This document shows positions 1-53,270 of a stretch of DNA of 64,000 bases, in pieces. Made by a program: the position numbers and the translations under genes. This stretch comes from a virus. The stretch is from positions 126,001-190,000 of the IMG/VR virus record IMGVR_UViG_3300024503_000485, one strand, 5' to 3'. Position 1 is the first letter of the stretch, and each line of letters begins with the position of its first letter. The notes beneath the pieces were generated by a model that ran no database searches, had not been told where the DNA came from, and saw only the letters and a list, made by a program, of their open reading frames with translations.

Positions 1-894
1 AGCATCTAAATTTCTTAGATAGTCACCCGTATCTTTAACTAACTCTTCGTTTGAAACTCTTACTCCGCCGGCGCTCTTTGTGACTATTGCTGAATATCTA
101 GCAATGCCATTATTAATATCTTCAGTTGAATAACCCAATCTTGCAAGTTCGTCTCCAAGTTGACTATTTCTAATCTTCTGAGACATTTCACTTAAACGTT
201 TTGCACCTTGAGTTACACTACCGCCAAATAATGCTAAGTTCTCGCTGTTATTTTTAATAATGCTTGTGTACTGGTCAAGTGTTAGCCCTGTTGCCGAAAC
301 TTGACGTTGCATTTCTTGAATGCTTCCTCCGAAGTTTGCACCAACACTTGCTGCTTTGTTAAACGATTCATAAGTTTTTGTAGCAGCGCCTGCTACAGCA
401 CCAAAGGCCGACCCAAGAACTCCACCAAAAATTGGAATCTTGCCAATAATGCCGCCAACAGCATTGATGTTGTTTCCCATATTGGCAAGATCATTCATTA
501 ACCCAAAGAATGATGATCCTAATGCACTGGCACTACTAGCAACTTTTGTAAATCCAGAAGCAACTAATTTTGTCCCTTCAATAAATTTTTCCTGGGCTCT
601 AAGTTCTTCTTGATATTGTTTTATCTTTTCTTTTTGAGCTTTGTTTTCTTCTTCGTCTTGTTTTATCTTTTCTTTTTGCAGTTTGGTTAATTTTTTAAAT
701 CCGTCCGATGATTCTTCAAGTTGCTTGTAGAATTTTTTCATCGACTCTGCAATTTGTTTTTCAGATTTGCCGTCTTTGCCTTGTTTAGCAGCCAACAGAG
801 CAACAGCACGGACAAGTTCCTTGAGGGTGGCTTCGGTAGCCGCGTTGTTTAATTCAATTGGTTGACCGCCTAGATCACCGGTTACTTCTGCCAT
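1..894 (-). CDS. Tail tape-measure-like protein, N-terminal part (runs off the left edge)
   Basis: An open frame reads leftward from an ATG at 894 to base 1 without a stop, giving 298 visible residues. The first ~40 residues are polar. Residues ~60-100 are a Lys/Glu/Gln-rich, probably coiled-coil segment with two near-identical copies of QKEKIKQ-type sequence. After this comes an Ala/Gly-rich hydrophobic stretch (GAVLGSAFGAVAGAA) and a region with the pattern NNSENLALFGGSVTQGAKRLSEM. That mixture of coiled coil, hydrophobic Gly/Ala segment and this motif is typical of tail tape-measure or gp29-like proteins of marine T4-like phages, which set tail length inside the tube. The gene is divergent from gp26, whose T4 homologue acts in the hub/tape-measure assembly pathway. 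A late-promoter motif sits just upstream on the same strand. Function is inferred from composition and context; the C-terminus is not in the window. Confidence 0.6.
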   Translation of the reverse strand, partial: MAEVTGDLGGQPIELNNAATEATLKELVRAVALLAAKQGKDGKSEKQIAESMKKFYKQLEESSDGFKKLTKLQKEKIKQDEEENKAQKEKIKQYQEELRAQEKFIEGTKLVASGFTKVASSASALGSSFFGLMNDLANMGNNINAVGGIIGKIPIFGGVLGSAFGAVAGAATKTYESFNKAASVGANFGGSIQEMQRQVSATGLTLDQYTSIIKNNSENLALFGGSVTQGAKRLSEMSQKIRNSQLGDELARLGYSTEDINNGIARYSAIVTKSAGGVRVSNEELVKDTGDYLRNLDA

Positions 895-962: not shown

Positions 963-1823
963 ATGGTAGAAAATCCATCAATTGCTAAACCAACAAATCC
1001 GTTGGCAGCGTTTTTTAGACAACCAAAGTTATATGTAACTTTACCAAGTCACGGCAAATATTATCCGCCGGGAGTATTGGATCAGAGTGAGAATGGCGAA
1101 TACGCTGTCTATGCTATGACCGCTAAGGACGAACTTATGTTTAAAACTCCCGATGCGTTAATGAATGGTCAAGCAACCGTTGAACTAATAAAAAGCTGTG
1201 TGCCTGCTATTAAAGATCCTTGGAAAATGCCAAGTTTAGATTTAGATGCTGTTTTAATTGCTATTAGAACAGCAACCTACGGTGAAATGATGGAAGTTGA
1301 TGCGGATTGCCCTGAATGCAGTAATCGAAGTACATTTGAAATTAATCTTGTGAGTTATCTTGATAAACTTAATAATTTTAGATATGTAGATCAACTTGAA
1401 GTTCCACCGTTAACTATTACTATTAGACCTTATTCATATCAAGAAATTACTAAGGCTAGTATTAAAGCATTAGAACAACAAAAAGTATTAAACGTTGTTA
1501 CTAACGATTCATTGTCAGATGAAGAAAAATTAGAGCAATTTGGCGAAAGTTTTATTAAATTAACCGAATTAACCGTAGATGTTATTGCAGGATGTATCAC
1601 TAGTATTACTACGCCAGAAGCTACCGTAACTGATTCTGTTATGATTAAAGAATTTATTAACAATGCATCAACTGATGTGTTTAATACAATTAATAAACAT
1701 GTAACAGAAATGAAAGGTAGAATTGATCTACAGACTCAAGAAGTCGAGTGTACAGAATGTCATCATCAATATACTATTAACTTAGTAATGGATCAATCAA
1801 ATTTTTTCGCAGTAAGGTCTTAA
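963..1823 (+). CDS. 26: Baseplate hub protein gp26-like (tail assembly chaperone candidate)
   Basis: This 286-residue protein resembles the T4 gp26 family (the Pfam 'T4 bacteriophage base plate protein' group). In T4 gp26 is needed for hub assembly and acts together with gp51. It has two CxxC pairs, C116/C119 (DCPECS) and C263/C266 (ECTECHH), which together look like a four-cysteine zinc ribbon. The conserved N-terminal segment with PSHGKYYPPG is present. The start ATG follows an AT-rich leader from a late promoter; a weak GGGG lies 9 bases upstream. The last codons (Asn-Phe-Phe at 1800-1808) form a slippery run, and the next gene, gp51, lies in the -1 frame with no start codon. The gene may therefore give two products, as lambda G/GT does. 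Confidence 0.8.
   Translation: MVENPSIAKPTNPLAAFFRQPKLYVTLPSHGKYYPPGVLDQSENGEYAVYAMTAKDELMFKTPDALMNGQATVELIKSCVPAIKDPWKMPSLDLDAVLIAIRTATYGEMMEVDADCPECSNRSTFEINLVSYLDKLNNFRYVDQLEVPPLTITIRPYSYQEITKASIKALEQQKVLNVVTNDSLSDEEKLEQFGESFIKLTELTVDVIAGCITSITTPEATVTDSVMIKEFINNASTDVFNTINKHVTEMKGRIDLQTQEVECTECHHQYTINLVMDQSNFFAVRS
1799..1808 (+). promoter_or_regulatory. Probable -1 ribosomal frameshift site between gp26 and gp51
   Basis: The bases are AAATTTTTTC. In the gp26 frame this contains two overlapping classical X XXY YYZ heptamers, A AAT TTT (1799-1805) and T TTT TTC (1802-1808). Slipping back one base at the second leads directly into the open gp51 frame at 1808, five codons before the gp26 stop at 1821. 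No ATG, GTG or TTG exists in the gp51 frame between here and the conserved gp51 core. A stimulatory structure downstream was not identified by eye. Confidence 0.65.
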
Positions 1824-2035
1824 ACCTCCCAAGGCCGGAGATCTTACATCTTGTTTCAAAATTAGAAAAAGAGGCTAGGGAGATTAAAAAGGATGTCCTC
1901 AAGGCTTGTTGGTATATGCGAGGACTTTCTTATAGTGAAGGTATGAATCTAAGTTATGAAGAGCGCCAAATTATTGGCGAGATTATCAAAGATAATTTAG
2001 AGACCACTAAGAAAAGCGGCCTCCCATTCTTTTAA
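1808..2035 (+). CDS. 51: Baseplate hub assembly catalyst gp51-like, in the -1 frame of gp26
   Basis: The frame reads about 75 codons to a TAA at 2035. The product carries the recognisable gp51 pattern: LPRPEILHLVSKLEKEAR, then CWYMRGLSYSEGMNLSYEER and IIGEIIKDNLE, ending in SGLPFF. gp51 is a small protein needed for T4 hub assembly. There is no usable start codon before the conserved core; the first in-frame ATG is at about 1916, inside CWYMRG. The gene is therefore most simply expressed as a C-terminal extension of gp26 by -1 slippage, giving a fusion of about 357 residues. Initiation at a non-standard codon is the alternative. The stop abuts the stop of the convergent minus-strand gene with no gap. 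The start coordinate given is the first codon after the proposed slip. Confidence 0.75.
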   Translation, partial: RSKVLNLPRPEILHLVSKLEKEAREIKKDVLKACWYMRGLSYSEGMNLSYEERQIIGEIIKDNLETTKKSGLPFF

Positions 2036-3145
2036 TTACTTTTTAAAAATACTTGTTGCACCTGATTTAACATTTTCGGTGAACAATTTCTTTTTGTGTT
2101 CTTCAATTTTTCTTTCAAGTGCTTCTGCCAAAGGATTACCTGTGTTAACTTTGCCAGCGGCTTGCACCGAAGGCTGAGCAGGAGCCTTAGCTCTTGATTT
2201 TCTCGGAGCACGTTTCTTTGTCTGCATTGTAGGTTCAACTGCGGGTTCTTGTGTTGCAGCTGGCTGTTCCGGTGCTGGTTGTTGTTGCATATTAGGATTG
2301 TTTGGATTTGCTGTATGGGTTGTTGTTCCACCAACCTTTGATGTTGTTCCACCAGTTGAGCTTGTTCCAGTGCTTACTGCCGGATTTGGTTCGCCGGCTA
2401 AGTTTGCTGCCATTTGTCCAAATGCACCTCCGCCTGCTGCTGGTTTTTCTTGTGCTGCTGGTTGTGCGCCTAATTCTTTTTGTAGTCCTGCAAGGATTCG
2501 TTGTTTACCTTTTTTATCTAGTTTAGCAATCTTAGCTTTAACCTGTGCATAAGGCGTGCCTTGTTGAGCTTGATCTTGTCCTTGACCACCTGCTGCTTGA
2601 CCTTGTGCGGGTTCCATAGTTGGTTCAATTCTTCCAGATGCATCAGGTTGTGCTGCTCCGCCTGCTGCTGGTTTTCCTTTTGCAGGTGCTGGTTGTCCGC
2701 TAGCGGCCGGTTGTTGGCCTCCTGCTTGACCTTGTGCGGGTTCTTCTTGATCTGTATCTTGCATTCCTGCTTTCTTGGCTGCATTAAGGAAAGGATTATT
2801 TTGACCAATCTTTCCTTTTTTCCACATATCTTGAGCAACTTGACGTTTAGTTATGCCTCCTTGACCACCTGCTGCTTGTTGACCACCGGCACCACCTGCT
2901 GCTTGTTGACCACCTGCTGCTTGACCTTGTGCGGGCTCTTCGTCATCTCCTGCACCTGCTACCGTACTTTTACCTGCGGCAAATCCTTTTTTAGCGGCTG
3001 CACCAAGTCCAGCTATACCACCTGCAACTGCGCCAACGCCTTTGGCAGCAGTTCCTACAGCTTTGCCAACTGCACTACCAATTTTATTCATCAATGGGCC
3101 TTCGGCAAGTTCTTTATCTTCGGTTATGAATTCATTTAATCTCAT
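2036..3145 (-). CDS. Ala/Gly/Gln/Pro-rich protein with capsid-targeting-like N-terminus
   Basis: This 369-residue protein has no recognised enzymatic domain. It opens with MRLNEFITEDKELAEG, which resembles the T4 capsid targeting sequence (MKTYQEFIAE type) and holds two (L/I)-x-E sites of the kind cut by the T4 prohead protease gp21 (ITE and LAE). Residues ~20-65 are Gly/Ala-rich, with repeated GKAVG/AGGIAG-like units. Residues ~70-330 are low complexity with many PAQGQAAGG-type repeats, then a Lys/Arg-rich segment (KKRAPRKSRAKA). A ~30-residue block near residues 200-232 (YAQVKAKIAKLDKKGKQRIL) is repeated at the C-terminus of the upstream neighbour. The gene follows that neighbour by one base. 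A packaged internal or scaffold-like head protein is a plausible inference only. Confidence 0.6.
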   Translation of the reverse strand: MRLNEFITEDKELAEGPLMNKIGSAVGKAVGTAAKGVGAVAGGIAGLGAAAKKGFAAGKSTVAGAGDDEEPAQGQAAGGQQAAGGAGGQQAAGGQGGITKRQVAQDMWKKGKIGQNNPFLNAAKKAGMQDTDQEEPAQGQAGGQQPAASGQPAPAKGKPAAGGAAQPDASGRIEPTMEPAQGQAAGGQGQDQAQQGTPYAQVKAKIAKLDKKGKQRILAGLQKELGAQPAAQEKPAAGGGAFGQMAANLAGEPNPAVSTGTSSTGGTTSKVGGTTTHTANPNNPNMQQQPAPEQPAATQEPAVEPTMQTKKRAPRKSRAKAPAQPSVQAAGKVNTGNPLAEALERKIEEHKKKLFTENVKSGATSIFKK

Positions 3146-19276: not shown

Positions 19277-22200
19277 ATGGCAAAGTTTTTTCCAAAAAGT
19301 CAATTACCTATTAGAAAGTCATCTGATTTATTACCAAAGGTATTTCAAACAGATGCTAATGATAAATTTTTATCCGGCGTTTTAGATCCGTTACTGCAAC
19401 CTGGTACACTAGAGAAGAACGTAGGATATGTTGGGCGTAGATACGGTAAAACATACAACGGCTCAGACATTTATTTAGATACCGACGCTACTCTTAGAAG
19501 TAGATATCAGTTGGAGCCTGGCGTTGTTCTTAAAAAAGATGGTAAGACACAAAATTTTTATGACTTCATTGACTTTAAAAATATTTTAAAATATTTTGGA
19601 AATAATGAAGATAGAGATGATCTAATTGATCAACACCAGCACTATAGTTGGAACCCTCCTGTTGACTGGGATAAGTTTATTAATTATAGAGAATATTTTT
19701 GGATGCCAAGCGGTCCTCCACCAATTAGAATTTTAGGCCAAAGTTCTTCTGTAATAAGCACATATAGAGTTAAGCTCGGAGAAGCGTCTTCTTTTATTTT
19801 TTCTCCAGACGGCTATACAAACAATCCTAGAATAACATTATATAGAGGACAAAAATACAAATTTATTGTAAATGTTCCGGGTAACGGATTTGTTATTAGA
19901 ACATCATATGATACTGGTTCATTGACATTTAATCCTGATTTATTCTATCCTCAAGGATCTATTGTTGTATTCAATGGTTCTGTATGGAAAGCAAAAGTTC
20001 CAGTATCTCCGGCCGACGGTAGCACAATAACAACAGAATCTCAAGACTGGGAATTTGTTGAAATTGTAAATGCAAATTCAGCAGCACTTGACTACACTAA
20101 AGGAATTACAAATTTTGGCATTGAGAATGGAACACTAACATTTGATGTGCCTTACGATGCGCCGGATATTCTTTATTATCAAAGTATTACTGATCCAAAT
20201 AAATTTGGTCAGTTTATTATTTCCGACATTGAAGAAAATTCAAAAATTAATATTAACGATGATATTATTGGAAAGACAACATATACAAGTAGCAACGGAA
20301 TTGAACTAAGCAATGGTATGATTGTTAATTTTGGCGGTGTTGTTACCCCAGAGAAATATTCAAAAGGAAATTGGTTAGTTGAAGGTGTTGGTAAAGCAAT
20401 CTCATTGACCAACTTTGATGATTTAGTTGTTCCTGTATTAACATCAGATGTTCCAGAAGTATTATTTGATAATGAAGGTTTTGACACAGCACCTTTTGAT
20501 GATGCAAGCTCGTATCCGGGAACAAAAGATTATATCACAATAGCTAAAAGTAGTAAAGATTTAAATCCTTGGTCACGATATAATCGTTGGTTTCATAGAA
20601 GTGTATTGGAACTTTCTTTTAAATTATCAGGAGAAGATTTTTACCACGACGAAGCAGCTAGAGCAAAACGTCCTATTATAGAATTTTTACCAAATTTAAA
20701 ATTATACGAACACGGAGTATTTGCTAAGGAAACCGTAGATTACATTGACACATTTACGTCAGACGTATTTTCTAAAATTGAAGGAAGTACTGGTTATAGT
20801 ATTGACGGTGAGCCGTTGTTTAACGGAGCAAGAATTCTTGTAACGGCCGACACTGATAGTTTAGCTAATAATAAAATTTATCAAGTTAAATTCTTCACTC
20901 AAAACGGTCAAAATCAAATCACCTTAATAAAAGTTGATGATACTGAATCCATCATTGGAGAAACCTTATTAGTTCGCCGTGGAAAGAAAAATAAAGGAAC
21001 AATGTTCTACTATGATGGAACCGCTTGGTTAAGTAGCCAAGAAAAAACTAAAGTTAATCAAGCACCTTTATTTGATGCATTTGATGAAAATGGTGTAAGT
21101 TTTTCTGATAAAGATACGTATCCAGTTTCAACATTCCGCGGTACTAAAATTTTAGCATACAAAGAAAGCACAGGAGTTGTTGACCTAGAACTTGGATTTC
21201 CAATTAGCTATCTTAATATCAGCAACGTTGGAGATATAAGTTTTGAATTTGTATGGGATATAGAATCCTTTACCTATGAAGTTTTAAGAAAATCATATTC
21301 AAAAAATATTAATACTGGTTTCTGTAAATTTAACCTAACAGACGAATATGTTAATCATTGGATTGAAACTGAACAAAAATATCTACAACCAATCATTGAT
21401 TCGCAGGTAATTACCACAGCAACTGACACGGTTTATTTTAATACCGTTGATTGGTTTAAAGTAACTGATCAAGACGAAATTTATTTTTATAAGAACGGAG
21501 AGCGTTATACAGAATCATATACAAGACAAGGTGGAAATTTTATTTTTGCTACACCGTTTGCTGTAAAAGATGTTCTTGTAATAAAAATATTTTGTAATTT
21601 AATTCCAGAAGAAGGATATTATGAAATTCCTGTAGGTTTGGAAAAAAATCCGTTAAACAACGAACTAACAGATTTTACGTTTGGACAAGCAGTTGATCAT
21701 ATTTCGTCTGGATTAGAATTTTACAATGGATTCTCTGGACTTGTTGTAGGAAATAATTCTTTAAGAGACATTCATGGATTCCAGGCATATACTAAGAGAT
21801 TTTTAAAACATGAAAGTGTGGCACCTGTTGCATTAACATTGCTAGTTGATAAGCAGGTTAATTTAATTAAAGCTCTCCGATATGCTAAAAAGTCTTATAC
21901 TGATTTTAAACATAATTTTATTAAAATTTCTGGAGAATTAGATTTTGATGGAGATATTCCAAAGCTAGTTGACAATATTATTAATGAATTAACAAGAGGT
22001 AAAAATCCTTCAAGCCCGTTTGTAAATTCTGATATGATCGGTAGCGGAGCATATACAAATTTAATTTACGAAGTTGAAGATCCAGATATTAACACATTTG
22101 TTATTTCAGATAAATTTGATTTAAAAACTTTAAGTAATCGAGCTGTCTACCTATACATTAATAATCAACAATTAATTAATGGATTTGATTACGAATTTAA

Positions 22201-25200
22201 TAGTGACTTTTCTTTTGTTAATATTTTAAAAACACTTAATGTTGGAGACATACTTGAAATTAGAGAATATGTTTCTTCAGGATTTAATCATATCCCTCAA
22301 ACACCGACAAAGATTGGATTGTTTAAAAAGTTTGTACCTGAAAAATTCTTAGATGACACCTTTGTTGAACCAAAATATATGATTCAAGGACACGACGGTA
22401 GCCTTACAACAGCATTTAATGACTATCGAGACGATGCGCTTCTTGAATTAGAATTAAGAATTTTTAATAACATCAAAAAAGAATATGATGAAAATATATT
22501 TGATATTGATGCAACCGCTGGCGGATATTATAAGACTGGAATATTTGAATACAATCAAATTATACAAATAAACACACAAGAATTTTTAAAATGGATTGCA
22601 GATACAAATATCGATTATGTAAGTAATAGCTATTTTGACAGCGAAAATTCTTTCACTTATACATATTCTAATATGTCTGACCCAGCCGGATTAGAAAATT
22701 TACCAGGTTGGTGGAGAGGAGTCTACAAGTATTTTTACGATACAGATCGTCCACATCGCTGCCCATGGGAAATGTTAGGATTTTCTATTAAACCGACATG
22801 GTGGGAAAGTGAATACGGACCTGCACCATACACTAGAAACAATTTACTTTTATGGGAAGACCTGGCTGCCGGCCTAATTAGACAAGGTCCAAGAGCAGGT
22901 GTTCATAAACGATATGTAAGATCTACTTTGTTAACACACATTCCTGTAGATGGAGATGGTAAACTATTAAGCCCTCTAGATTCAAATCTAGCACAAAATT
23001 TTTCTTTGATTAATAATCAAGGGGATTTTAACTTTGGCGATATTTCCCCTGCAGAACATGCATGGTATAGCAGTAGTGAATATCCATTTGCAACAATTAT
23101 TGGAATGGCATTGTTAAGACCTTTTGAATTTGTAGGCAAAAATTTTGACAATTCAAAAATTGTAAGAAACAAATTAAATCAATTAGTACATACCGATACA
23201 GGTATCTTTGTTAAAGTTGAAGATTTAGTTGGATCAAGTTCTGGCGGATATTTAACCAGCGGATTAGTTTCTTATATTGTAGATTATTTAAAGAGCCATA
23301 ATATTAATGAAAATGTGTTGCAGGAAAAATTAGATGAAATCGATGTTTACCTAACACATAGATTATCTGGATTTGTTGATCAAACACAACAACGATTTAT
23401 TTTAGATTCAAAAAATCCTAATTCTACTTCGGCAAATATTTTTGTTCCGGTAGAAAATCAGGAAATTTATTATAATGTTAGTGCTCCAATTGCAAGTATA
23501 ATTTATAGCGCGGTCATTGTTGAAAAAATGACCAACGGTTGGAAAATTAGCGGCTATGACTTTTTAGATCCGCATTTTACATATTTTGCTCCGGTGATTA
23601 GTCAAATAGATCCTCTTATTTCAGTTGGCGGAGTTTCTGAAAATTTTGTTAATTGGACAGAAGATAAATTTTATGGAAATGGTGTAGTAGCAAGATATAA
23701 TAATGAATATTATAGAAGTGTTAAAAGCCATCAAAGCGGATCCACATTTGATTTAACCCTGTGGAAAAAACTTCCAGACCTTCCTAAGAAAGACGACGTT
23801 CAAGCATTTAAGAGAAGAACATTTAACACCATAAGAGAACAAAAAATAAGTTATGGAACTACCATCGGCACAATCCAAGGAGTAGTTGATTTCTTATTAG
23901 GTTATGAACAATATCTAATTTCTAAAGGATTTAAATTTGATAGATACGATACAGACAGCAAGGTAACTCAAGATTGGTTCACTAGTGCTAAAGAATTTAT
24001 GTACTGGACACAGCATAATTGGGCTCCTGGATCTTTATTAACTTTAAGTCCTGCTGCTGAAAAAATGGATGTATCTTATCCAATTGGTGTTCCTGATAAT
24101 CTATTAGATAGCTTTTATGAATATCAAGTGTTTAGAGGTGACGGTCAGCCATTGACTCCTAATTTCTTAAACATAAAAAGAGATTTTCAAAATATAACTA
24201 TTGAAACTACAAACACAGCAGAAGGAATTTATTTCTTTAAAGCTCACTTAGTGTTAAAAGAACACGTTGCTATTTTCGATGACCGAACCGTTTTCAATGA
24301 TGTTATCTATGATAAAACAACAGGCTATCGTCAAGAAAGAGTTAAGGCAAGAGGTTTTAGAACCGTTGACTGGGACGGTGATTATACAAGTCCCGGATTC
24401 TTATTTGATAATGTTAATATTATAGCATGGCAACCTTATACTGATTACAGATTGGGTGATATAGTTAATTACAAAAGTTATAACTGGGTAACAAAATCTA
24501 ATCACACATCTACCGATCAATTTGTAAATGCATTCTGGACTAAACTTGATTCAACACCGAACAAGAGATTAGTTCCAAACTTTGATTATAGAATTAATCA
24601 ATTTGAAGATTATTATAATCTTGATGCAGATGGTCTTGGGTCAAGCCAACGAGATCTTGGTCGACACGCCATCGGTTATCAAACTAGAGAATACTTACAA
24701 AATCTTGCAGAAGATGACGTAACACAATTTCAGTTATATCAAGGTTTTATTAGAGAAAAAGGTACATTAAATGCCGCTGTTAAAATATTTGATAAACTAA
24801 GCAAAACAACAGAAGATAGTATTGTTTTAAACGAAGAATGGGCGTTTAATGTTGGTACCTTAGGCGGAGTAGACGAGTTAAATGAAGTTGAATTTGCATT
24901 TAATAAAGACTCCTTACAAGTAAATCCTCAGCCAATGATATTTGTGTCATCGGCTTATACAGGAGTAATACTTGATCAATATCTAAGAATCCCTGCATCG
25001 GACTTTACAAATGCTCCGTCGCCTTTTACAACTTCGATTATTCCTAAAACAGATTTTGATCAATTTCAGTCTGCGGGTTACGTAAAACTTGACCAAGTTG
25101 ATTTTGTTATTAAGAATAGATCAGATTTAGAAACATTAGATATTACACAAGTAAAAGACGGCGACCATTTTTGGATTACATTCGATAATTCAGCATGGAC

Positions 25201-28200
25201 GGTTTTAAGATTTACTAGAAAGCCATTATTAACTTTAATTTCAGCAATTAAAACAGGTACAACAATTGAAATTACATTTAATCGTAGACACGCTTTTATT
25301 GTTGACGATTACATTGGCATTAACGATGTTCCTAACCTAACCGGCTTTTATAAAATTAATGAAGTAACTCTTACTTCTGTTATCATTGCCTGCGCATCTG
25401 ATGCTAAAGATCCATTAGTTGATACAAGTACATTAATTCGTGTTTACGGATTAGACAATGTTAGATTTTCTTCTGGATCGGATATAGATCAAGAATATGT
25501 TGCATTATTGCCTAACAATTCAAAATTGTGGTTTGATTCTAATGATAACGGACTATGGGAAGTTGTACAAAAAAATAAAGTCTTTAGCTATAAATCCTTA
25601 ACTGATTATGGAACTACCGTGCCCGAAGGAACAGGACATGCAGTTTGTTATGTTGAAAGATTACAACAAACTATTACAAGCATGCCTTCAAATTCAATGG
25701 TTCTTGTTTATGTTGAGGGACCTACAGGTTTAAAAATTAAACAGACATTTGCCCCTGAGCCTGAACTATATTTGTTGCTTTCTAATTCTTTTGGAGAAGA
25801 ACTTGCAGTAAGTCCTGACGGACATTTCTTAGCAGTTGGATGTCCTAGAGCATCGGGCGTGCCTTCAGCATATATTGGTGTTTTTGATCCTACAGCAAAT
25901 TATGAAATAGGTGATGTTGTTGAATATGCTGGAAAATTGTGGAAGGCTACAACAGCAGTAGTAGGAGACGGCAGTACAATTGATATTCAAAGTAATGATT
26001 GGGAGCCTACATCTTTATTAACTTATGATCCAAATTTTGGCCGTGGCGAAGGATTTAGAAATCAAGGAGCTGTTTCGATTTATGTTTGGAATAATCAAAA
26101 CTGGTCATTAACAACTACACTAGTAAGTCCAAGACCTGCGTTTGATGAAAATTTTGGATCTAATATTTCTATTTCAAAATCTGGTTCAGATTATTGGATG
26201 GCTGTTTCAGCTCCTGGTTCGTTAGATAGCAGGGGTAGAATTTATCTTTACAGGTATAATAGTGAAACTTTGGCCTGGGAACAACACGAAAATAACAATT
26301 ATATTGGAGTATATGTTTCAGATCCTGCTAGACAATATCCAAAAGGATCAATTGTATGGTGGAATAATTCCTACTGGAAAGCGGTTGAGGATACCAACGG
26401 TGACGGTAGTACCATTAGTATCAGTTCACCCGACTGGATAAAAATTGATGACATATCTAGTCAATCATCTTTACCAACAAACGTTTCTATTGAAGATGAC
26501 GGATCAACAATTTCGTCTGGATTATTAAGTGAAAGTGATCTAGCAGAACTTACAAAACAAGGTGATATGTTTGGTTCTGCAATGGCAATGAATAAAGATG
26601 GATCTATATTAGTTGTCGGTGTTGCTGATAGTGATGGTATTTACTTTGCAAATTATAAAGGAATCTGGTCAGCCACCCAAGAATATATTGCAGGAGATGT
26701 TGTAAAATATCAAGGTTACTATCATAGACTAACAAATGTTCGTCCTGAAGATCCTGTAGATTCAGCAACCTATAGAAGTTTTGGAGAATACCCAGACGAT
26801 GGATTGCCATGGACTAACGTGGGCGACAGCACTATTCCGTATTCAACAGGTAAAGTTTATATCTACCAAAGAGATAGTAATAGTGTTTACAAACTAAAAC
26901 AAACAATAACTGCTGGATCAATTGGATTATTTGATGATACTGGCAATAACGAATCTATCACCGTTGGTGATAAATTTGGATTCTCTGTTGATGTTGATGC
27001 AACAGGTCAACACATTGTTATTAGTGCTCCTCAGGCAGATATTAATTTACAAAATCAAGGTGCAGTATATTATTTCTCTGCAACTAGTTTAACAAATCCA
27101 GAATGGAGATTAAAACAAAAATTAGAAAGTTTTGAAGAATATAATAATTTGTTGTTTGGTTCTGATGTATCTATTAGTTCTGGAACAGAAAGAATAGTTG
27201 TTGGCGCAAAAAATGCTCCATACAAATCTTATGCATATTTTGAAACAGGAACTACATTTGATAAAAATTCAACAATATTTTCAACATTTAACGGTTATTC
27301 GGGACAGGTATATTCTTTTGAAAGAGTTAGTGGAAAATATTTCTTAACAGAAAAATTAGAAGCAGACGTAACCAATAATGAATCTTTTGGTTATGCCATT
27401 GATGCAACATCCGATGTTATTGTAGTTGGTTCTCCTAACTACAATAACGGTGACGGTTTAGTTAGAACATTTAGAAAAGATACTTCTGTTAAATCTTTAA
27501 AAACATTAGCCGTTCAAGAACAATTAATTGATATTTCTAAAATTAAAAATATTTCTTTAATTGATGCAGATAAAAATGTTAAGATAAGCGACATTGATTT
27601 TATTGATCCAATTAAATTAAAAATATTAGGACTTGCAGAACAGGAACTTAATTTTAAAACACCGTACGATCCAGCAATTTATACCAACGGAACAGAAGAA
27701 ACCGTAGTAGATCCTGACGCAGCTTGGTTTACAAAGAACGTTGGAAAACTATGGTGGAATTTAAACACAGCTAAGTGGTTGTACTATGAGCAAGGCGATA
27801 TTGCTTATAGAAACGGTAATTGGGGACAATTAGCTAAAGGATCTACTATTGATGTTTATGAATGGGTTGAAACTACTCTATTACCTAGCGAATGGAGTGC
27901 CCTTGCTGACACCACTGCAGGATTAACTGAAGGAATCTCTGGACAGCCATTATATCCTAATGATGATGTATATTCTGTAAAACAATTTTATAATGAAATT
28001 ACACAACAGGTAACAGAAATAAAATATTATTATTGGGTTAAGGGCAGCACCGTTGTCCCACAAAAAGTTAATAGAAAATTGTCAGCAGGAGAAGTTGCAG
28101 CGTTGATTGAGACGCCAATTTCAAGCGGATATCCAATATTAGCATTGTTAGATAGTGATAAAATTTTAGCATACAATTTTAATAAATTTGTAACTTCTGG

Positions 28201-31200
28201 AAGAGCATTATTAAACATTGAATTCTACACAAATGAATCTTCAGTTAATCCTGTGCATAGAGAATATGTATTATTAGCTGAAGGCGTTGCAGACAACCTT
28301 CCTCCAGAAACTTTAGAGACTAAATGGATCGATAGTTTAGTTGGATTTGATCAAGCAGGTAATACCGTGCCTGATCCTAAACTTTCTACTAAAGAAAAAT
28401 ACGGATTATCATTCAGACCTCGTCAGAGTATGTTTGTAAATCGTTCTGAAATTTTAAAAATTGTTATTACTAATATTAATTCATTATTACTAACAAATCC
28501 ATATTCTGAAATTTTAAATTTTGATAATTTAAATTCAACAGATTTAGAACCAGATGAAAAATTAAACGAATATGATGTAGCAGTAGATACAATAACTGAC
28601 TTAGAACAAATTGGTGCAATTCGTGTTCGCCAAGCAGTATTACAAGCAAATATTGTTAACGGCGAAGTTGATACAATTGATATTGTAGATTCTGGATTTG
28701 GTTATAAAAATGCTCCGTACATTGAAATACAAGGTGACGGAACAGGAGCCAGGGCTTATATTACAATTGATAATCAAGGTAGAGTAAGTAGTGTTAAAAT
28801 TCAAACAACCGGAAGAAAATATACAACCGCCACCGTTAAAATTCGAGAGTATTCAGTATTAGTTAGAACTGATGAAACAATTAATAATTTCTGGAGTATC
28901 TATTCTTGGGATCAACAAAGAAGAATTTTCTATAAGAGTAAGTCTCAAGGTTATGATGTAAGAAACTATTGGTCATATATCGATTGGTGGAAACCAGGAT
29001 ACTCAACCTCAACTAGAATATTATATGAAGTTCCAAGTTTGTATTTAGAACCAACAATATATACTGAGCCAGGAGATTTAATTAGAGTTAAAGAATATGC
29101 TAACGGCGGATGGGCAGTACTTGAAAGAACAGCAGACGGCTCTGGTGAAATTTTAGGAAAATATCTGTTAGTTGCTAGACAAAACGGAACAATTGAATTT
29201 AAAGATTCTCTTTATAATACTAAAACAACCGCTATTGGTTTTGATAATGTTGGATATTATGATACAGCATTATATGACTTAGAACCTTCAAGAGAATTAA
29301 GGATTATTTTAAATTCTATTAAAACTGATTTATTTGTTGGAGATCTTAAAGTTGAGTGGAATAAATTATTCTTCACTTGTGTAAGATATGCTTTCTCAGA
29401 AAATCAGCCAATTTTCTGGGCATTTAAAACAAGTTTTATTAATGCATTACATAATGTTGGATCGTTAGAACATAAAGTTTCTTACAAGAACGATAACCTT
29501 CCTGCGTATCAAAAATATCTTGAAGAAATTAAACCATACAAAACTTCTATTAGAGAATATACAAGTCGTTATGTAAATCAAGAATCAACAAATACAGATA
29601 TTTTAGATTTTGATTTACCTCCCGTATATTCCACACGCGATAATAAAATTGTTCCAGTGAATAATGGATACAATTTATTTGATCAGTATCCATGGAAGTG
29701 GTGGTATGACAACAAAGGATTCTCAGTAGTATCTATTGAAGTTTCATATGCAGGTGCAGATTATACATCTGTTCCTACCGTTCTTATTGAGGGCAACGGA
29801 ACAGGAGCAAAAGCTAAAGCATATATTTCAAATGGTAAAGTTTCTGGTATCACAATGGTTGATATTGGAGAAGGGTATACTGAAACACCAACAATTACGT
29901 TAGTTGGTGGCAACGGTTCGTCTTTATTAAAAGCAAAAGCAATTGCAATTTTAGGTCAAACAAAAGCAAGAACATTTAATCTTGGAATTAAGTTTGACAG
30001 AATTTCTAAAGAAGGCATTTATAACGCATTTACGCATTCTCAAACATTTACTGCATCAGGACGTACTGCGGTTTTTGATTTAGCATTTGCGCCAACAAGA
30101 GATAAATCGAAAATTACTATTGTTAAAAACAAACAATTAATATTGAATAATGAATATAGTTTATCATTGTTCAAAACATCTACCGATGATTATAAGATCC
30201 TAAAAGGTAGATTGATTTTTGTTGACCCGCCAGCTAAAGATGATGTTATTACAATAACATATGAAAAGAATGATGAATTGTTAGATGCTGTTAACAGAAT
30301 TAACAAGTATTATTCACCAACTAGCGGAATGATTGGAAATGAAGTTGGACAATTAATGACCGGTATTGATTTTGGCGGAGTTCAAGTTCAAGGAACAACA
30401 TTTGATGTAACTGGCGGATGGGACGCTCTTCCGTGGTTTACTGATAGCTGGGACAGCGTTGACTCTAACGACGATTATTATGTAATTGTTGACGGTAGTA
30501 CCTCTGGGATTGAACTACCAGAAGCTCCTGTAGAAAATCAAATAATTACAATTTATCTACAAAGAGCAGGAACATCTAAACCGATTAGAATTGACGATCC
30601 ACACTTTGATCATGCCGGCGACTCGGCATTAGTAACAAATTCTAATGCTCTTATGCCAACGTTTGTTGGAGATGGTTCTACAAAAATTGTTTCTATTGAA
30701 AATTATTTCCAAACATATGCAGGCGATGTATTAATTTTCCGTCCTGCAGAAAGCGACGGATCTGTTAATATTACAGATACAAACCTTCTCGATTCTAAGA
30801 TTAGTGGCGGAACATTAGCATCAATGAGCGGTGCATATTCAACTGCTACAGGAATGACAGCAGAAGAAATTGTAATTAGCGGTGGCGCATTTAATACGCC
30901 AGATCATACACCTGCTCCTGAAGAAAATGTACCGGGACAAATACTTGATAGTGTTTCTATTAAGGTGTTCCAAACTACAATCAGTGGTGCTGCAACTATT
31001 CAAAATAAAGTTGTTATTTCAGATGGAATTACTTCTCGATATGCCATTGATTTAACTATAATAGAAGAAGCATCAATATTGGTCTATGTAGATAAAATTT
31101 CCTATGTTTCATTTGGAGATAGCACAACCAGTTATAGCATAGATTTTACAACCAACGAAATTGTGTTTAATACTCCACCTGCGCTAGGCTCTACAATTGA

Positions 31201-32962
31201 GATCATTGCAATTGGTCGTGGGGGTATTGCATTATTAGATTTCCAAGAGTTTGTTGCAGATGGCAATACAAGATTGTTCTTAACAAAAGCAGATTATTCT
31301 TTAACACAAAATATTTTAGTAACCGTTGACGGTCATCAAGTCGACACAGGATTTACTAATAGTACTATTGTTGCTGAAGATACAGGAACAACTATTGAAC
31401 CTGGAAAAACAATGGTAGAATTTGGATTAACACCAGATGCAAATTCAATTATTAAAATCATTTGTTTGGGTTCAACATCAAATGTTGATAGTTCTGGATT
31501 GTCTGTAATTCGTGTTAATAAACAAATTTTAACATATGAGGGATCAACACGATCTTTTATGCTAGACAAATTTGTAGATCCATCTAGAAGTTCAGCAATT
31601 GCGTCTATGGTTGTTTTGTTAAACAATAAAAAATTAAAAGGCCCAGATACTTATTATAGAATATACGACGGATCAAATAACGAAGTTGAAGTAGGTGTAG
31701 ATCCAACATCTGTGGTAACATCAGTTGATGTTAGAGTTTATATTAATAATATATTACAGCCATTTGTTACGGCATATATCTATGACGGCACTACCGGAAC
31801 CGTGGTTGTTAATACAGAATATCTAGAATTGCAAGATGTTATTAGAATAGAAATTATTAATAATGCAGAATATTCTGTTACAGATAACATTTTACAAATT
31901 TCTGATTTAGTAACCTTAGTAGACGAAGATCAAATAGAAGTAACTTGGTTTAGCGAATATCCAACGTTTGACATTGTTTCTGACGTTCATTCAGGAGGAA
32001 AAGTTCAATATCAATTGAATAGAGCCCCATTAGATTCTCATTATGTATGGGTTTATAAGAATGGCGAGAGACTAGTTCAAGGAAAAGAATTTGTTGTTTC
32101 AACACCAAGGAATGTTGTATATCTGAATATTCCTTCTTTGTTAACTGACAAAATTGAAATTATGGAATTTGGTAATAATGTTTATAAAACTCCAAGAGCT
32201 TTTGAAATGTATAAAGACATGTTTAACGTAACTCATTATAAGCGTTATGCTATTAATGATGTTCAGTTATCAAAAGAATTAAATTATTACGATACTACTA
32301 TTGAAGTTAATGATGCTTCGGCTCTTGACGAACCTAATATGTCTAAAAATATTCCTGGAGTGGTAACAATCAACAAAGAACGCATCGAGTTCTTAACTAA
32401 ATCCGGAAACGTGTTAGGACAATTAAGAAGAGGAACGTTAGGATCTTCAATCGGTCAAACTTATCCTGCAGGAACCCCAGTAATCAGTGCAGGTGTTGAT
32501 GACATTATTCCTTATATTGATTCTCAAGAAAAAGAAGAGTTTGTTAGCGACGGAAGTACATTGTTGATTGGACCATTATCTTTTGTTCCAACAAAATCAA
32601 CAAGATCTAGCTTTACCAGAAAAACAATTCCAGAAGATTTTGGAGCCTGCGATCAAGTAGAAATATTTGTTGCAGGCAAAAGATTAAGAAAAGATCAGTT
32701 ATCTGTTTATAACGAATCTTTAGGATCAGTAAGTCCATCGGCAGATGAAATTTTAGAAGCAGAATTTTCTGTAGACGGAGCAACACCTTATATAAGATTA
32801 ACTAAGCCAGCAACTGAAGGTACACGAATTTTAATAATTAGAAAAGTTGGTAGATTATGGTACGAGAGAGCTGAAACTACAGCAAGTAGAGGTATTACGC
32901 TGCTTGATAACAATACAGCTATTGCTCGTTTCATTGATCAAAAGCCAACGGAATTGCCATAA
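19277..32962 (+). CDS. Giant multidomain baseplate/fibre structural protein (4,561 residues)
   Basis: One uninterrupted frame covers 13.7 kb, about a fifth of the window. The position after gp6 is that of T4 gp7/gp8, and the N-terminal ~150 residues (SSDLLPKVFQTDANDKFLSG, WNPPVDWDKFINYREYFW) probably form the baseplate-binding part. Residues ~2165-2740 contain six FG-GAP-type blade motifs (FGEELAVSPDG, FGSNISIS, FGSAMAMN, FGFSVDVD, FGSDVSIS, FGYAIDA), suggesting a beta-propeller. Six motifs of the W...Y..GD.V.Y.G..Y type (CBM5/12-like sugar-binding) occur near residues 220-263, 1457-1498, 1715-1758, 2200-2245, 2342-2390 and 2460-2515; the last three interrupt propeller blades. Residues ~3138-3180 and ~3490-3540 hold two related GTGA-type repeats. 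No transmembrane or catalytic motif is seen. A role in host-surface recognition is inferred. Confidence 0.7.
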   Translation: MAKFFPKSQLPIRKSSDLLPKVFQTDANDKFLSGVLDPLLQPGTLEKNVGYVGRRYGKTYNGSDIYLDTDATLRSRYQLEPGVVLKKDGKTQNFYDFIDFKNILKYFGNNEDRDDLIDQHQHYSWNPPVDWDKFINYREYFWMPSGPPPIRILGQSSSVISTYRVKLGEASSFIFSPDGYTNNPRITLYRGQKYKFIVNVPGNGFVIRTSYDTGSLTFNPDLFYPQGSIVVFNGSVWKAKVPVSPADGSTITTESQDWEFVEIVNANSAALDYTKGITNFGIENGTLTFDVPYDAPDILYYQSITDPNKFGQFIISDIEENSKININDDIIGKTTYTSSNGIELSNGMIVNFGGVVTPEKYSKGNWLVEGVGKAISLTNFDDLVVPVLTSDVPEVLFDNEGFDTAPFDDASSYPGTKDYITIAKSSKDLNPWSRYNRWFHRSVLELSFKLSGEDFYHDEAARAKRPIIEFLPNLKLYEHGVFAKETVDYIDTFTSDVFSKIEGSTGYSIDGEPLFNGARILVTADTDSLANNKIYQVKFFTQNGQNQITLIKVDDTESIIGETLLVRRGKKNKGTMFYYDGTAWLSSQEKTKVNQAPLFDAFDENGVSFSDKDTYPVSTFRGTKILAYKESTGVVDLELGFPISYLNISNVGDISFEFVWDIESFTYEVLRKSYSKNINTGFCKFNLTDEYVNHWIETEQKYLQPIIDSQVITTATDTVYFNTVDWFKVTDQDEIYFYKNGERYTESYTRQGGNFIFATPFAVKDVLVIKIFCNLIPEEGYYEIPVGLEKNPLNNELTDFTFGQAVDHISSGLEFYNGFSGLVVGNNSLRDIHGFQAYTKRFLKHESVAPVALTLLVDKQVNLIKALRYAKKSYTDFKHNFIKISGELDFDGDIPKLVDNIINELTRGKNPSSPFVNSDMIGSGAYTNLIYEVEDPDINTFVISDKFDLKTLSNRAVYLYINNQQLINGFDYEFNSDFSFVNILKTLNVGDILEIREYVSSGFNHIPQTPTKIGLFKKFVPEKFLDDTFVEPKYMIQGHDGSLTTAFNDYRDDALLELELRIFNNIKKEYDENIFDIDATAGGYYKTGIFEYNQIIQINTQEFLKWIADTNIDYVSNSYFDSENSFTYTYSNMSDPAGLENLPGWWRGVYKYFYDTDRPHRCPWEMLGFSIKPTWWESEYGPAPYTRNNLLLWEDLAAGLIRQGPRAGVHKRYVRSTLLTHIPVDGDGKLLSPLDSNLAQNFSLINNQGDFNFGDISPAEHAWYSSSEYPFATIIGMALLRPFEFVGKNFDNSKIVRNKLNQLVHTDTGIFVKVEDLVGSSSGGYLTSGLVSYIVDYLKSHNINENVLQEKLDEIDVYLTHRLSGFVDQTQQRFILDSKNPNSTSANIFVPVENQEIYYNVSAPIASIIYSAVIVEKMTNGWKISGYDFLDPHFTYFAPVISQIDPLISVGGVSENFVNWTEDKFYGNGVVARYNNEYYRSVKSHQSGSTFDLTLWKKLPDLPKKDDVQAFKRRTFNTIREQKISYGTTIGTIQGVVDFLLGYEQYLISKGFKFDRYDTDSKVTQDWFTSAKEFMYWTQHNWAPGSLLTLSPAAEKMDVSYPIGVPDNLLDSFYEYQVFRGDGQPLTPNFLNIKRDFQNITIETTNTAEGIYFFKAHLVLKEHVAIFDDRTVFNDVIYDKTTGYRQERVKARGFRTVDWDGDYTSPGFLFDNVNIIAWQPYTDYRLGDIVNYKSYNWVTKSNHTSTDQFVNAFWTKLDSTPNKRLVPNFDYRINQFEDYYNLDADGLGSSQRDLGRHAIGYQTREYLQNLAEDDVTQFQLYQGFIREKGTLNAAVKIFDKLSKTTEDSIVLNEEWAFNVGTLGGVDELNEVEFAFNKDSLQVNPQPMIFVSSAYTGVILDQYLRIPASDFTNAPSPFTTSIIPKTDFDQFQSAGYVKLDQVDFVIKNRSDLETLDITQVKDGDHFWITFDNSAWTVLRFTRKPLLTLISAIKTGTTIEITFNRRHAFIVDDYIGINDVPNLTGFYKINEVTLTSVIIACASDAKDPLVDTSTLIRVYGLDNVRFSSGSDIDQEYVALLPNNSKLWFDSNDNGLWEVVQKNKVFSYKSLTDYGTTVPEGTGHAVCYVERLQQTITSMPSNSMVLVYVEGPTGLKIKQTFAPEPELYLLLSNSFGEELAVSPDGHFLAVGCPRASGVPSAYIGVFDPTANYEIGDVVEYAGKLWKATTAVVGDGSTIDIQSNDWEPTSLLTYDPNFGRGEGFRNQGAVSIYVWNNQNWSLTTTLVSPRPAFDENFGSNISISKSGSDYWMAVSAPGSLDSRGRIYLYRYNSETLAWEQHENNNYIGVYVSDPARQYPKGSIVWWNNSYWKAVEDTNGDGSTISISSPDWIKIDDISSQSSLPTNVSIEDDGSTISSGLLSESDLAELTKQGDMFGSAMAMNKDGSILVVGVADSDGIYFANYKGIWSATQEYIAGDVVKYQGYYHRLTNVRPEDPVDSATYRSFGEYPDDGLPWTNVGDSTIPYSTGKVYIYQRDSNSVYKLKQTITAGSIGLFDDTGNNESITVGDKFGFSVDVDATGQHIVISAPQADINLQNQGAVYYFSATSLTNPEWRLKQKLESFEEYNNLLFGSDVSISSGTERIVVGAKNAPYKSYAYFETGTTFDKNSTIFSTFNGYSGQVYSFERVSGKYFLTEKLEADVTNNESFGYAIDATSDVIVVGSPNYNNGDGLVRTFRKDTSVKSLKTLAVQEQLIDISKIKNISLIDADKNVKISDIDFIDPIKLKILGLAEQELNFKTPYDPAIYTNGTEETVVDPDAAWFTKNVGKLWWNLNTAKWLYYEQGDIAYRNGNWGQLAKGSTIDVYEWVETTLLPSEWSALADTTAGLTEGISGQPLYPNDDVYSVKQFYNEITQQVTEIKYYYWVKGSTVVPQKVNRKLSAGEVAALIETPISSGYPILALLDSDKILAYNFNKFVTSGRALLNIEFYTNESSVNPVHREYVLLAEGVADNLPPETLETKWIDSLVGFDQAGNTVPDPKLSTKEKYGLSFRPRQSMFVNRSEILKIVITNINSLLLTNPYSEILNFDNLNSTDLEPDEKLNEYDVAVDTITDLEQIGAIRVRQAVLQANIVNGEVDTIDIVDSGFGYKNAPYIEIQGDGTGARAYITIDNQGRVSSVKIQTTGRKYTTATVKIREYSVLVRTDETINNFWSIYSWDQQRRIFYKSKSQGYDVRNYWSYIDWWKPGYSTSTRILYEVPSLYLEPTIYTEPGDLIRVKEYANGGWAVLERTADGSGEILGKYLLVARQNGTIEFKDSLYNTKTTAIGFDNVGYYDTALYDLEPSRELRIILNSIKTDLFVGDLKVEWNKLFFTCVRYAFSENQPIFWAFKTSFINALHNVGSLEHKVSYKNDNLPAYQKYLEEIKPYKTSIREYTSRYVNQESTNTDILDFDLPPVYSTRDNKIVPVNNGYNLFDQYPWKWWYDNKGFSVVSIEVSYAGADYTSVPTVLIEGNGTGAKAKAYISNGKVSGITMVDIGEGYTETPTITLVGGNGSSLLKAKAIAILGQTKARTFNLGIKFDRISKEGIYNAFTHSQTFTASGRTAVFDLAFAPTRDKSKITIVKNKQLILNNEYSLSLFKTSTDDYKILKGRLIFVDPPAKDDVITITYEKNDELLDAVNRINKYYSPTSGMIGNEVGQLMTGIDFGGVQVQGTTFDVTGGWDALPWFTDSWDSVDSNDDYYVIVDGSTSGIELPEAPVENQIITIYLQRAGTSKPIRIDDPHFDHAGDSALVTNSNALMPTFVGDGSTKIVSIENYFQTYAGDVLIFRPAESDGSVNITDTNLLDSKISGGTLASMSGAYSTATGMTAEEIVISGGAFNTPDHTPAPEENVPGQILDSVSIKVFQTTISGAATIQNKVVISDGITSRYAIDLTIIEEASILVYVDKISYVSFGDSTTSYSIDFTTNEIVFNTPPALGSTIEIIAIGRGGIALLDFQEFVADGNTRLFLTKADYSLTQNILVTVDGHQVDTGFTNSTIVAEDTGTTIEPGKTMVEFGLTPDANSIIKIICLGSTSNVDSSGLSVIRVNKQILTYEGSTRSFMLDKFVDPSRSSAIASMVVLLNNKKLKGPDTYYRIYDGSNNEVEVGVDPTSVVTSVDVRVYINNILQPFVTAYIYDGTTGTVVVNTEYLELQDVIRIEIINNAEYSVTDNILQISDLVTLVDEDQIEVTWFSEYPTFDIVSDVHSGGKVQYQLNRAPLDSHYVWVYKNGERLVQGKEFVVSTPRNVVYLNIPSLLTDKIEIMEFGNNVYKTPRAFEMYKDMFNVTHYKRYAINDVQLSKELNYYDTTIEVNDASALDEPNMSKNIPGVVTINKERIEFLTKSGNVLGQLRRGTLGSSIGQTYPAGTPVISAGVDDIIPYIDSQEKEEFVSDGSTLLIGPLSFVPTKSTRSSFTRKTIPEDFGACDQVEIFVAGKRLRKDQLSVYNESLGSVSPSADEILEAEFSVDGATPYIRLTKPATEGTRILIIRKVGRLWYERAETTASRGITLLDNNTAIARFIDQKPTELP

Positions 32963-47029: not shown

Positions 47030-49289
47030 TATTTTTTATGTTTCAAAAAATTCCATTAACGACTATAACTGGAACTCAGTCAAGTCAAAATATCCCACAG
47101 CTAGAAAATTTGAAAACATAAATTCTTTTGATCAATTAAAAAAACAAGCATTTACTAAAATGTTTTGGGTTGTGTGGGACGACCTTACCTTATTAGACAA
47201 TCTTAATTTAAACACATACAGAGCTACCCAGTGGGACGATATGTATGTTCATGTATTTAAAAATAGTGATCATTACGACGGAGTTTGTTTATTTCCTAAG
47301 TCAGTTACAATTTCTCAAAGAGAATTTGATAATCGGTTTTTTACAGATAAAAAAGAAATAGATATTGTTGCTAGTATTCCACTAGGATATGATAAATTTA
47401 ATATTACAACTTACGATGATTATCTAAACGCTGTTGAACAATCAAGTACAGACATGTTTTGGGCAATTTGGCCTGATGTAAATGTCAAAGAAGATTTTAA
47501 ATTTAATTATAAAGTTCCTAAGCATAATTCTAATATTGTTCATATTTTTAAAAATGGAGAATTTTTTGACGGCATTTGCTTATTTCCAAAAAATGTAAAA
47601 GTTTCTAAGAGAGAATTTTATCATAGATTTTTTGCAGAAAAAAAAGAAATAGATATTGTTGCTAGTATTCCAAAACAATACAACATCTATTCTCCTAAAA
47701 CATTTGATGAGTATAAACAAATTACAGACGATATGTTTTGGATTGTGTGGCCTGAGGTAAAAATTATTAACAATGAAATTTTTGATTTATATTTTAGCCA
47801 TCACAATACCTATGACAGAAGAGAAAATCATGTTTTTAAAAATTTGTGTAATTACGACGAATCTTACCTAAGCGGAATTTTGTTATGCAGCAAATTTAAA
47901 CCTTTAACACAAGAAGAGTTTGATAAACAATATCCTACTGATAAAAAAGAATATAATATAATCGCTAGTAAATTTCAATATCCTATATATACAATCACAT
48001 CTTACGAGCAATATTTAGATATATGTAAAACTGAATCTCAAAATATGTTTTGGTGTGTATGGCCAGAAATTAAAATATTAGATGATAAACTATTTGATTT
48101 GTATTTTGATCCAAATAGTGGGGCATTTGATTATGATAGAAAAGAAAATCATGTTTTTAAAAATTTATGTAACGACAAAGAATCTTTTCTAAACGGTGTA
48201 GTATTATTTTCTAAAGAAAAAATCATATCTAAAAAAGAATTTAATAGAAGATTTTTAATTGATAAAAAAGAACATAATTTTGTAGCAAGTCGTTATGCGT
48301 ATCCTGTTTACAATATTGATACTTATGACGATTACAAACAAATTATAGACACCGAATCTCAACCTTTATTCTGGGCAATTTGGCCTGAAATAGAAATTAT
48401 TGATTCTGAAATTTTTAATTTATATTTTGAACCTAATAATGGCGTATATGATTATGATAGAAATATCAATCATGTATTTCAGCATAAATTTAGAAACGAA
48501 TTAACATATAACGGATTGATGTTAATGTCTACATCAACGCCAGTTAGTCCTAAAGAAATTGATTTTAGGTTTTTAATTAATAAAAAACAATATGAACAAG
48601 TTGTTTCTAAGCATAAAGACTATGATATAATATTTGTAAGTTATAACGAACCTAATGCTGAAGAAAATTATAATAAACTAATTAACAAATTTCCAAGAGC
48701 TAAACGAGTACATGGTGTTAAAGGTATTCATCAAGCGCATATAAAGGCAGCTGAACTTGCCACAACAGACATGTTCTGGGTTGTTGATGCCGATGCACAT
48801 ATAATAGATGATTTTAATTTTAATCATCAGGCAACGCGATACGAAAAAGATGTTGTTCATGTGTGGAGAAGTAAAAATCCAATAAATGATTTAATATATG
48901 GTTATGGTGGAGTAAAACTATTACCAAGAAAATTAACATTAGATATGGATGTAAATACAGCCGACATGACAACATCGATTAGTAAAAAATTTAAAGCAAT
49001 GCCGGAAGTCAGTAATATATCTGCATTCAATACAGATCCTTTTAATACTTGGAAATCGGCATTTAGAGAATGTGTAAAACTTTCTAGTAGAACAATTGCT
49101 GGACAAGTTGATGAGGAAACACAAAAGAGATTAGACATATGGTGTTCTGTAGCAAAAGACAAATTTGCTAATGATGCACTTAGCGGTGCAATTGCAGGAC
49201 GTAAGTACGGAGAAGAAAATAAAAACAATCCAGAAGCCCTTGCAAAAATTAATGATTTTGATTGGTTAAAAACACAATATGGAATTTAA
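47022..49289 (+). CDS. Repeat protein: five degenerate and one intact glycosyltransferase-like unit
   Basis: This 755-residue protein is a string of related ~95-107-residue units followed by a complete domain. Each degenerate unit contains MFW-x-(V/I)W(P/D)(D/E), then a (V)H-(V/I)FK-N segment, an LF(P/S)K stretch and F--(R/Q)(F/Y)--(D/E)KKE; the FW motif falls at residues ~48, 146, 239, 343 and 450. The final unit (~535-755) has MFWVVDADAH with D589/D591, plus YDIIFVSYNEPNAEENY and HGVKGIHQAH, matching the previous gene. In the five earlier copies the DxD is replaced by W(P/D)(D/E) residues, so only the last is likely to bind a nucleotide sugar. The repeats may bind glycan or scaffold partners. 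Confidence 0.6.
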   Translation: MYDIFYVSKNSINDYNWNSVKSKYPTARKFENINSFDQLKKQAFTKMFWVVWDDLTLLDNLNLNTYRATQWDDMYVHVFKNSDHYDGVCLFPKSVTISQREFDNRFFTDKKEIDIVASIPLGYDKFNITTYDDYLNAVEQSSTDMFWAIWPDVNVKEDFKFNYKVPKHNSNIVHIFKNGEFFDGICLFPKNVKVSKREFYHRFFAEKKEIDIVASIPKQYNIYSPKTFDEYKQITDDMFWIVWPEVKIINNEIFDLYFSHHNTYDRRENHVFKNLCNYDESYLSGILLCSKFKPLTQEEFDKQYPTDKKEYNIIASKFQYPIYTITSYEQYLDICKTESQNMFWCVWPEIKILDDKLFDLYFDPNSGAFDYDRKENHVFKNLCNDKESFLNGVVLFSKEKIISKKEFNRRFLIDKKEHNFVASRYAYPVYNIDTYDDYKQIIDTESQPLFWAIWPEIEIIDSEIFNLYFEPNNGVYDYDRNINHVFQHKFRNELTYNGLMLMSTSTPVSPKEIDFRFLINKKQYEQVVSKHKDYDIIFVSYNEPNAEENYNKLINKFPRAKRVHGVKGIHQAHIKAAELATTDMFWVVDADAHIIDDFNFNHQATRYEKDVVHVWRSKNPINDLIYGYGGVKLLPRKLTLDMDVNTADMTTSISKKFKAMPEVSNISAFNTDPFNTWKSAFRECVKLSSRTIAGQVDEETQKRLDIWCSVAKDKFANDALSGAIAGRKYGEENKNNPEALAKINDFDWLKTQYGI

Positions 49290-53268: not shown

Positions 53269-53270
53269 AA

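Follow-up and report, generated by a model that had tools for sequence, protein, structure and literature searches.

A putative -1 frameshift signal with a conserved slip site and a downstream stem-loop in the gp26-type gene, a probable tail assembly chaperone gene, of T4-like phages

Results

Organization of the gp26-type locus

The window, by which we mean the whole 64,000-nucleotide (64 kb) stretch of DNA that was analysed, belongs to a 219 kb virus record (IMGVR_UViG_3300024503_000485). Near its left end, an ATG opens an ORF on the plus strand at 963-1823, which encodes a 286-aa protein (TAC-N; TAC, tail assembly chaperone). We assigned this 0-frame product to the gp26 type because it scored 74.1 bits (E = 1.7e-20) against the T4_baseplate profile PF12322, in which membership was defined by a score over the curated cut-off of 24.5 bits, and matched phrog_150 (baseplate hub; E = 1.5e-23). 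A genome-wide count over the 219 kb record, which may be incomplete, gave one gene with PF12322, and no second, in-frame long-form gene such as that of T4 was found. The AlphaFold model of TAC-N had a pLDDT of 84, and its best fold matches in BFVD were T4-like baseplate hub proteins (E down to 3e-23). Searches of the PDB with TAC-N by sequence and by fold returned nothing significant. Because no solved TAC structure matched the model, membership in the TAC fold rests on the T4-like families and on the published assignment.

Toward the 3' end of this ORF, AAATTTTTTC at 1799-1808 contains two overlapping heptamers in the 0-frame phase, A AAT TTT (1799-1805) and T TTT TTC (1802-1808). The initial annotation had read both heptamers correctly in frame but had ended the gp26 frame at this sequence; four further sense codons (GCA GTA AGG TCT) precede the TAA. 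The -1 frame, open from position 1781, lies between one TAA at 1778-1780 and another at 2033-2035. As the initial annotation had claimed, it has no start before its conserved core, since its first ATG, GTG or TTG is the ATG at 1916, within the core. A slip at T TTT TTC would re-read C 1808 and join 282 residues to an extension of 75 (1808-2035, plus strand, stop included; TAC-C, or 'gp51'), and the resulting fusion, TAC-NC, would have 357 aa, exactly the approximate length predicted earlier. Both strands of the window were scanned for open stretches of at least 100 codons that carry an X XXY YYZ heptamer in phase within their last 25 codons and whose -1 frame runs on for at least 40 codons beyond the stop. 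This locus was the only one returned, and thus the site is not a mere chance occurrence.

Divergent from the TAC-N gene, positions 1-894 (minus strand) hold the N-terminal part of the tape-measure-like gene that the initial annotation had placed beside gp26/gp51. The gene continues upstream of the window (4662-7895 of L049, minus strand), and its 1077-aa product has long helical stretches as well as a GH19 domain near the C-terminus (PF00182, E = 1.1e-6). The counterpart of this gene next to gp26 of phage RaK2 is annotated as similar to tape measure protein, and we infer that the 1077-aa product is the tape measure. GH19 is a chitinase/endolysin-type domain, and its presence on a tape-measure-like protein suggests a tail-borne muralytic activity. 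On the other side, a minus-strand gene at 2036-3145 converges with the -1 extension and abuts it (2035/2036); it encodes a 369-aa protein with low-complexity AAGGQQ-rich repeats. Elsewhere in the window, the structural region contains one ORF of 4561 aa (19277-32962), and four consecutive ORFs at 49279-54536 carry radical-SAM-like cysteine motifs (CNFKCSYC, CNYRCGYC, CNIKCRTC and CNAACPMC) and adjoin glycosyltransferase-like genes, which is unusual for a phage.

Conservation of the slip site among relatives

The initial annotation had proposed a comparison of gp26-gp51 junctions among T4-like phages. When the junctions were compared, in-phase TTTTTTC followed by a -1 extension was present in 36/36 window-type IMG/VR relatives that include the junction, and T TTT TTC was likewise identical in 80/80 cyanophage-type IMG/VR loci (relatives of S-PM2); a start codon for gp51 was not conserved. 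The window-type extensions were 75-76 aa long and mostly ended in LPFF; this set includes L034, which is cut at the contig end, and L027, which enters another frame near its end. The L027 extension ends in VCLFSNYL.. instead of the conserved LPFF, suggesting a one-base assembly error. In the cyanophage-type loci, one sense codon precedes the 0-frame stop and the extension is 59-66 aa long. Across relatives generally, the stop lies 1 to 11 codons past the slip site, at varying positions.

Most of the cultured phages that we examined carry the same heptamer. In-phase TTTTTTC with an extension of 70-77 aa was found in the jumbo phages Atu_ph07, Phosso, PA5oct, RaK2, 7t3 and CBB, and TTTTTTC also occurs in KVP40-like phi-pp2 and in OLIVR6, ACP17, Bhz51 and Asswx_1. 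Variants were TTTTTTG in RHph_I1_9 and TTTTTTT in pf16. Thus, an in-phase T6 slip site and an open -1 frame were found in all cultured T4-like phages examined but T4, with one Stenotrophomonas record reading T5. In that record (phage IME-SM1; L135, KR560069.1), the sequence near the end of gp26 is GATTTTTCGG, and the close relative Bhz51 (L136) has T6; the T5 is probably a one-base homopolymer error that altered the annotated end of gp26.

The codon choice at this position was specific. In the sampled genes, C-terminal Phe-Phe codons were TTTTTTC in 53/53 cases and internal ones in 1/33 (Fisher p = 8e-23, an optimistic value because the sequences are related). The initial annotation had named both heptamers as canonical slip sites. 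While T TTT TTC is conserved across relatives, A AAT TTT is kept in part of the clade alone, being missing from L026, L027, L030-L036 and most cyanophages. We therefore ruled out A AAT TTT, unconserved beyond the close clade, as the main slip site; judged from its distribution, it is probably auxiliary.

A stem-loop downstream of the slip site

A stem-loop, absent from the initial annotation, forms part of the signal. Its 5' arm (1812-1821) starts after a 3-nt spacer and pairs with the 3' arm (1838-1847) in a stem of 10 bp, with an inner helix of 1825-1827 and 1832-1834. The predicted energy of the fold is -14.8 kcal/mol, and 1 of 200 dinucleotide shuffles was as stable. Over 18 relatives, double-sided changes were found in four of the nine pairs, and the observed covariation score was reached by none of 500 shuffles; sliding the partner abolished the signal. 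The spacer is under the usual length, and the outer pairs of the stem must therefore be open when a ribosome occupies the slip site.

We further compared stability with that of synonymously recoded sequences, a test in which the encoded protein is kept fixed. Stability exceeded that of the recoded sequences (p < 0.05) in 18/24 window-clade and 22/29 cyanophage loci, with a mean z of -2.3 in both, and there was no effect just downstream (z about 0). In about a quarter of the loci, including L029, L030, L032, RaK2, 7t3 and several cyanophages, this test did not detect the hairpin. The sequence of the cyanophage hairpin is unrelated to that of the window clade. Thus, a conserved, putatively stimulatory RNA structure lies 3' of the slip site, though not in every lineage.

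Selection on the -1 extension and its relationships

The extension is under purifying selection, with a pN/pS of 0.29 overall and 0.23 past the hairpin. Synonymous divergence was lower over its first 19 codons (0.57 vs 0.75), as expected where an RNA element overlaps the coding sequence. A stop in the -1 frame lies immediately 5' of the slip site in L031-L036 and in ten cyanophage-type loci. No ATG, GTG or TTG occurs among the initial 24 extension codons in L001, L007, L009, L010, L015, L019, L025, L032, L035, PA5oct and RaK2, and in PA5oct these start codons are absent throughout the -1 frame. The downstream frame is therefore under coding selection without a conserved start of its own. In the database records of PA5oct (L041), RaK2 (L042), Atu_ph07 (L039) and S-PM2 (L048), the extension is omitted or begun at an internal codon, and a joined CDS is annotated in none of them.

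The predicted structure of the extension consists of two long helices linked by a short one (pLDDT 89); in a BFVD fold search, it was matched only weakly, by short phage proteins that are uncharacterised (best E = 0.008). The profile phrog_634 matched the cyanophage extensions (E = 3.5e-28) and the KVP40-type extensions (E = 5.9e-21); the extensions of S-PM2, phi-pp2, RHph_I1_9, pf16 and ACP17 matched it. The window's own extension had no direct phrog_634 match; hhalign linked it weakly to the cyanophage set (31 columns, probability 35%), and when it was aligned directly with T4 gp51 by hhalign, the only match was N-terminal and spurious. Thus, the label gp51 in the initial annotation is clear for the cyanophage and KVP40-type extensions and weak for that of the window.

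The arrangement in T4

T4 gp26 belongs to PF12322, as does T4 gp51 in its N-terminal part, and residues 147-246 of gp51, in its C-terminal part, match phrog_634. T4 gp51 therefore combines the two families in one frame and represents a naturally occurring, in-frame long version of the gp26 type. Genes 26 and 51 of T4 are separate and divergent, and T4 gp26 retains the Phe-Phe as TTC TTT, without a slip site. In seven cultured phages, the genome-wide number of PF12322 copies was one in each of the six with the slip site and two in T4. Among the phages examined, T4 alone had an independent gp51 and no slippery sequence, a combination that the initial annotation had regarded as evidence against frameshifting. 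The lack of the site is expected in T4, which has a second, in-frame long-form gene. It appears from these sequences that duplication and in-frame fusion replaced frameshifting in the T4 lineage.

Discussion

The production of tail chaperones by frameshifting is a textbook mechanism. A short and a -1 extended product can be read from the one gene described here, as in the lambda G/GT type, and the analogy with G/GT drawn in the initial annotation withstood our comparisons at the level of sequence architecture. We consider it very likely that -1 programmed ribosomal frameshifting at T TTT TTC makes the long TAC form. Support for this origin of gp51, also proposed initially, comes at the sequence level from the conserved site, the open frame, the start-less relatives, selection and RNA structure, from which we infer slippage, the ratio at which it occurs and a role as chaperone. 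Taken as a whole, the explanation that the locus is the TAC gene of a large T4-like phage and is read in this way has a high probability. Points against it are the short spacer, the loci in which the hairpin was not detected, the lack of a match between TAC-N and solved TAC structures, and the weak link of the window's extension to phrog_634.

Most ribosomes would translate 963-1823 and release the short TAC-N of 286 aa. In a minority, the phenylalanine tRNAs in the P-site and A-site would re-pair one base upstream at T TTT TTC, a slip that would be promoted by stalling at the stem-loop (1812-1847), which spans the 0-frame stop. The slipped ribosomes would continue in the -1 frame to give the 357-aa TAC-NC. 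If the parallel with lambda G/GT holds, the tape measure protein would be coated by many short copies, and a few long copies would recruit tail-tube subunits via the helical C-terminal domain.

The same fusion would arise if RNA polymerase added one U at the T6, so that part of the mRNA encoded it in a single frame. The conserved run of six T is compatible with such transcriptional slippage, although six bases is short for efficient slippage by bacterial RNA polymerase. Polymerase slippage can also be favoured by a downstream hairpin (review PMC5009743). In the surveyed loci, however, the run never exceeds six except in pf16 (T7), its codon phase is fixed and it is followed by C in nearly all cases. 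Because length, phase and the following C are all constrained, tandem slippage on X XXY YYZ fits better than a length-driven mechanism, and we regard polymerase slippage as unlikely.

It is very improbable that the extension is instead an independent gene with its own start, as the annotations of S-PM2, OLIVR6 and RHph_I1_9 have it, perhaps with translation coupled to the stop of gp26. Many cyanophages do have an ATG three codons past the slip site, but a start of this kind is not conserved and is missing in several lineages, and we rejected it for this reason; further, an independent gene would account neither for a T6 that is invariant and fixed in codon phase, nor for the hairpin or the in-frame fusion of T4 gp51. 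As a T6 homopolymer is error-prone, and IME-SM1 has T5 where Bhz51 has T6, the two frames could in principle be one continuous frame split by a sequencing or assembly error, or the extension could be dead. The same T6 occurs in more than 100 assemblies, including isolates, the 0-frame stops differ in position and the extension is under purifying selection. The comparative data rule out this reading, to which we attach almost no probability.

Programmed frameshifting at T TTT TTC can be set beside several known systems. In lambda G/GT, the established tail assembly chaperone frameshift (Xu, Hendrix and Duda 2004; review PMC5009743), both the slippery sequence and the protein family are different; the window differs further in having a stem-loop after the slip site and a tape-measure-like gene that is divergent rather than downstream. 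Vladimirov, Gautam and Davidson (2022, Virology 566:9-15) are reported by citing papers to have assigned T4 gp26/gp51 as tail assembly chaperones and identified the TAC genes of T4-like phages. The short form in the window belongs to PF12322 and phrog_150 like T4 gp26, and the short and long forms are the counterparts of gp26 and gp51, but in T4 these are two separate divergent genes with no slip site. The gp26/gp51 loci of Kyanoviridae (e.g. S-PM2) share T TTT TTC, a hairpin directly downstream and the -1 ORF; they differ in the shorter extension, the hairpin sequence, a tape-measure-sized gene directly downstream and annotation as two genes. The closest cultured relatives are jumbo phages of the RaK2/Atu_ph07/PA5oct type, which have T TTT TTC, a homologous extension and an adjoining divergent structural gene, although their TAC-N is merely 31-37% identical to that of the window and the extension is usually unannotated or begun at an internal codon. 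The TAC locus of phage Adele (Vandenendeviridae/Andersonviridae) has a T-rich -1 site, GTTTTT, at the end of TAC-N, argued by comparison (PMC12846349); it belongs to other phage families and resembles the window in its slip-site layout.

A review (PMC5009743) listed T4 as the exception to a tail chaperone frameshift that is otherwise near-universal, and some T4-like phages have been described as using two genes in place of frameshifting (PRFect, PMC10885494). According to the paper on phage Adele (PMC12846349), TAC-N genes of T4-like phages are known to contain polyT slip sites, and the frameshift is thus probably already known in part of the T4-like group. The novelty appears to lie in the RNA signal, in its conservation and its breadth: in the literature examined, we found neither the stem-loop with its covariation, nor the occurrence in KVP40-type, Ceceduovirus and RaK2-type phages, nor the correlation with gene copy number.

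It is probable that nearly all T4-like myophages, RaK2-type jumbo phages and Straboviridae beyond the T4 genus among them, depend for tail assembly on a single ancestral cassette, consisting of T TTT TTN and a fast-evolving, repeatedly re-formed stem-loop. T4 would then be derived, its gene having been duplicated and the long form fused in frame (gp51) before the slip site was lost. Our results suggest that T4-like phages, taken together, do not depart from the rule and that the two-gene solution is confined to T4 among the records examined. Further, several records of cyanophages and of RaK2, PA5oct and their jumbo phage relatives leave out a short conserved coding region, gp51, or start it wrongly. 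With a slip site that hardly varies and a hairpin whose sequence is free to change, the family is well suited, as a natural collection, to the study of bacterial -1 frameshift signals.
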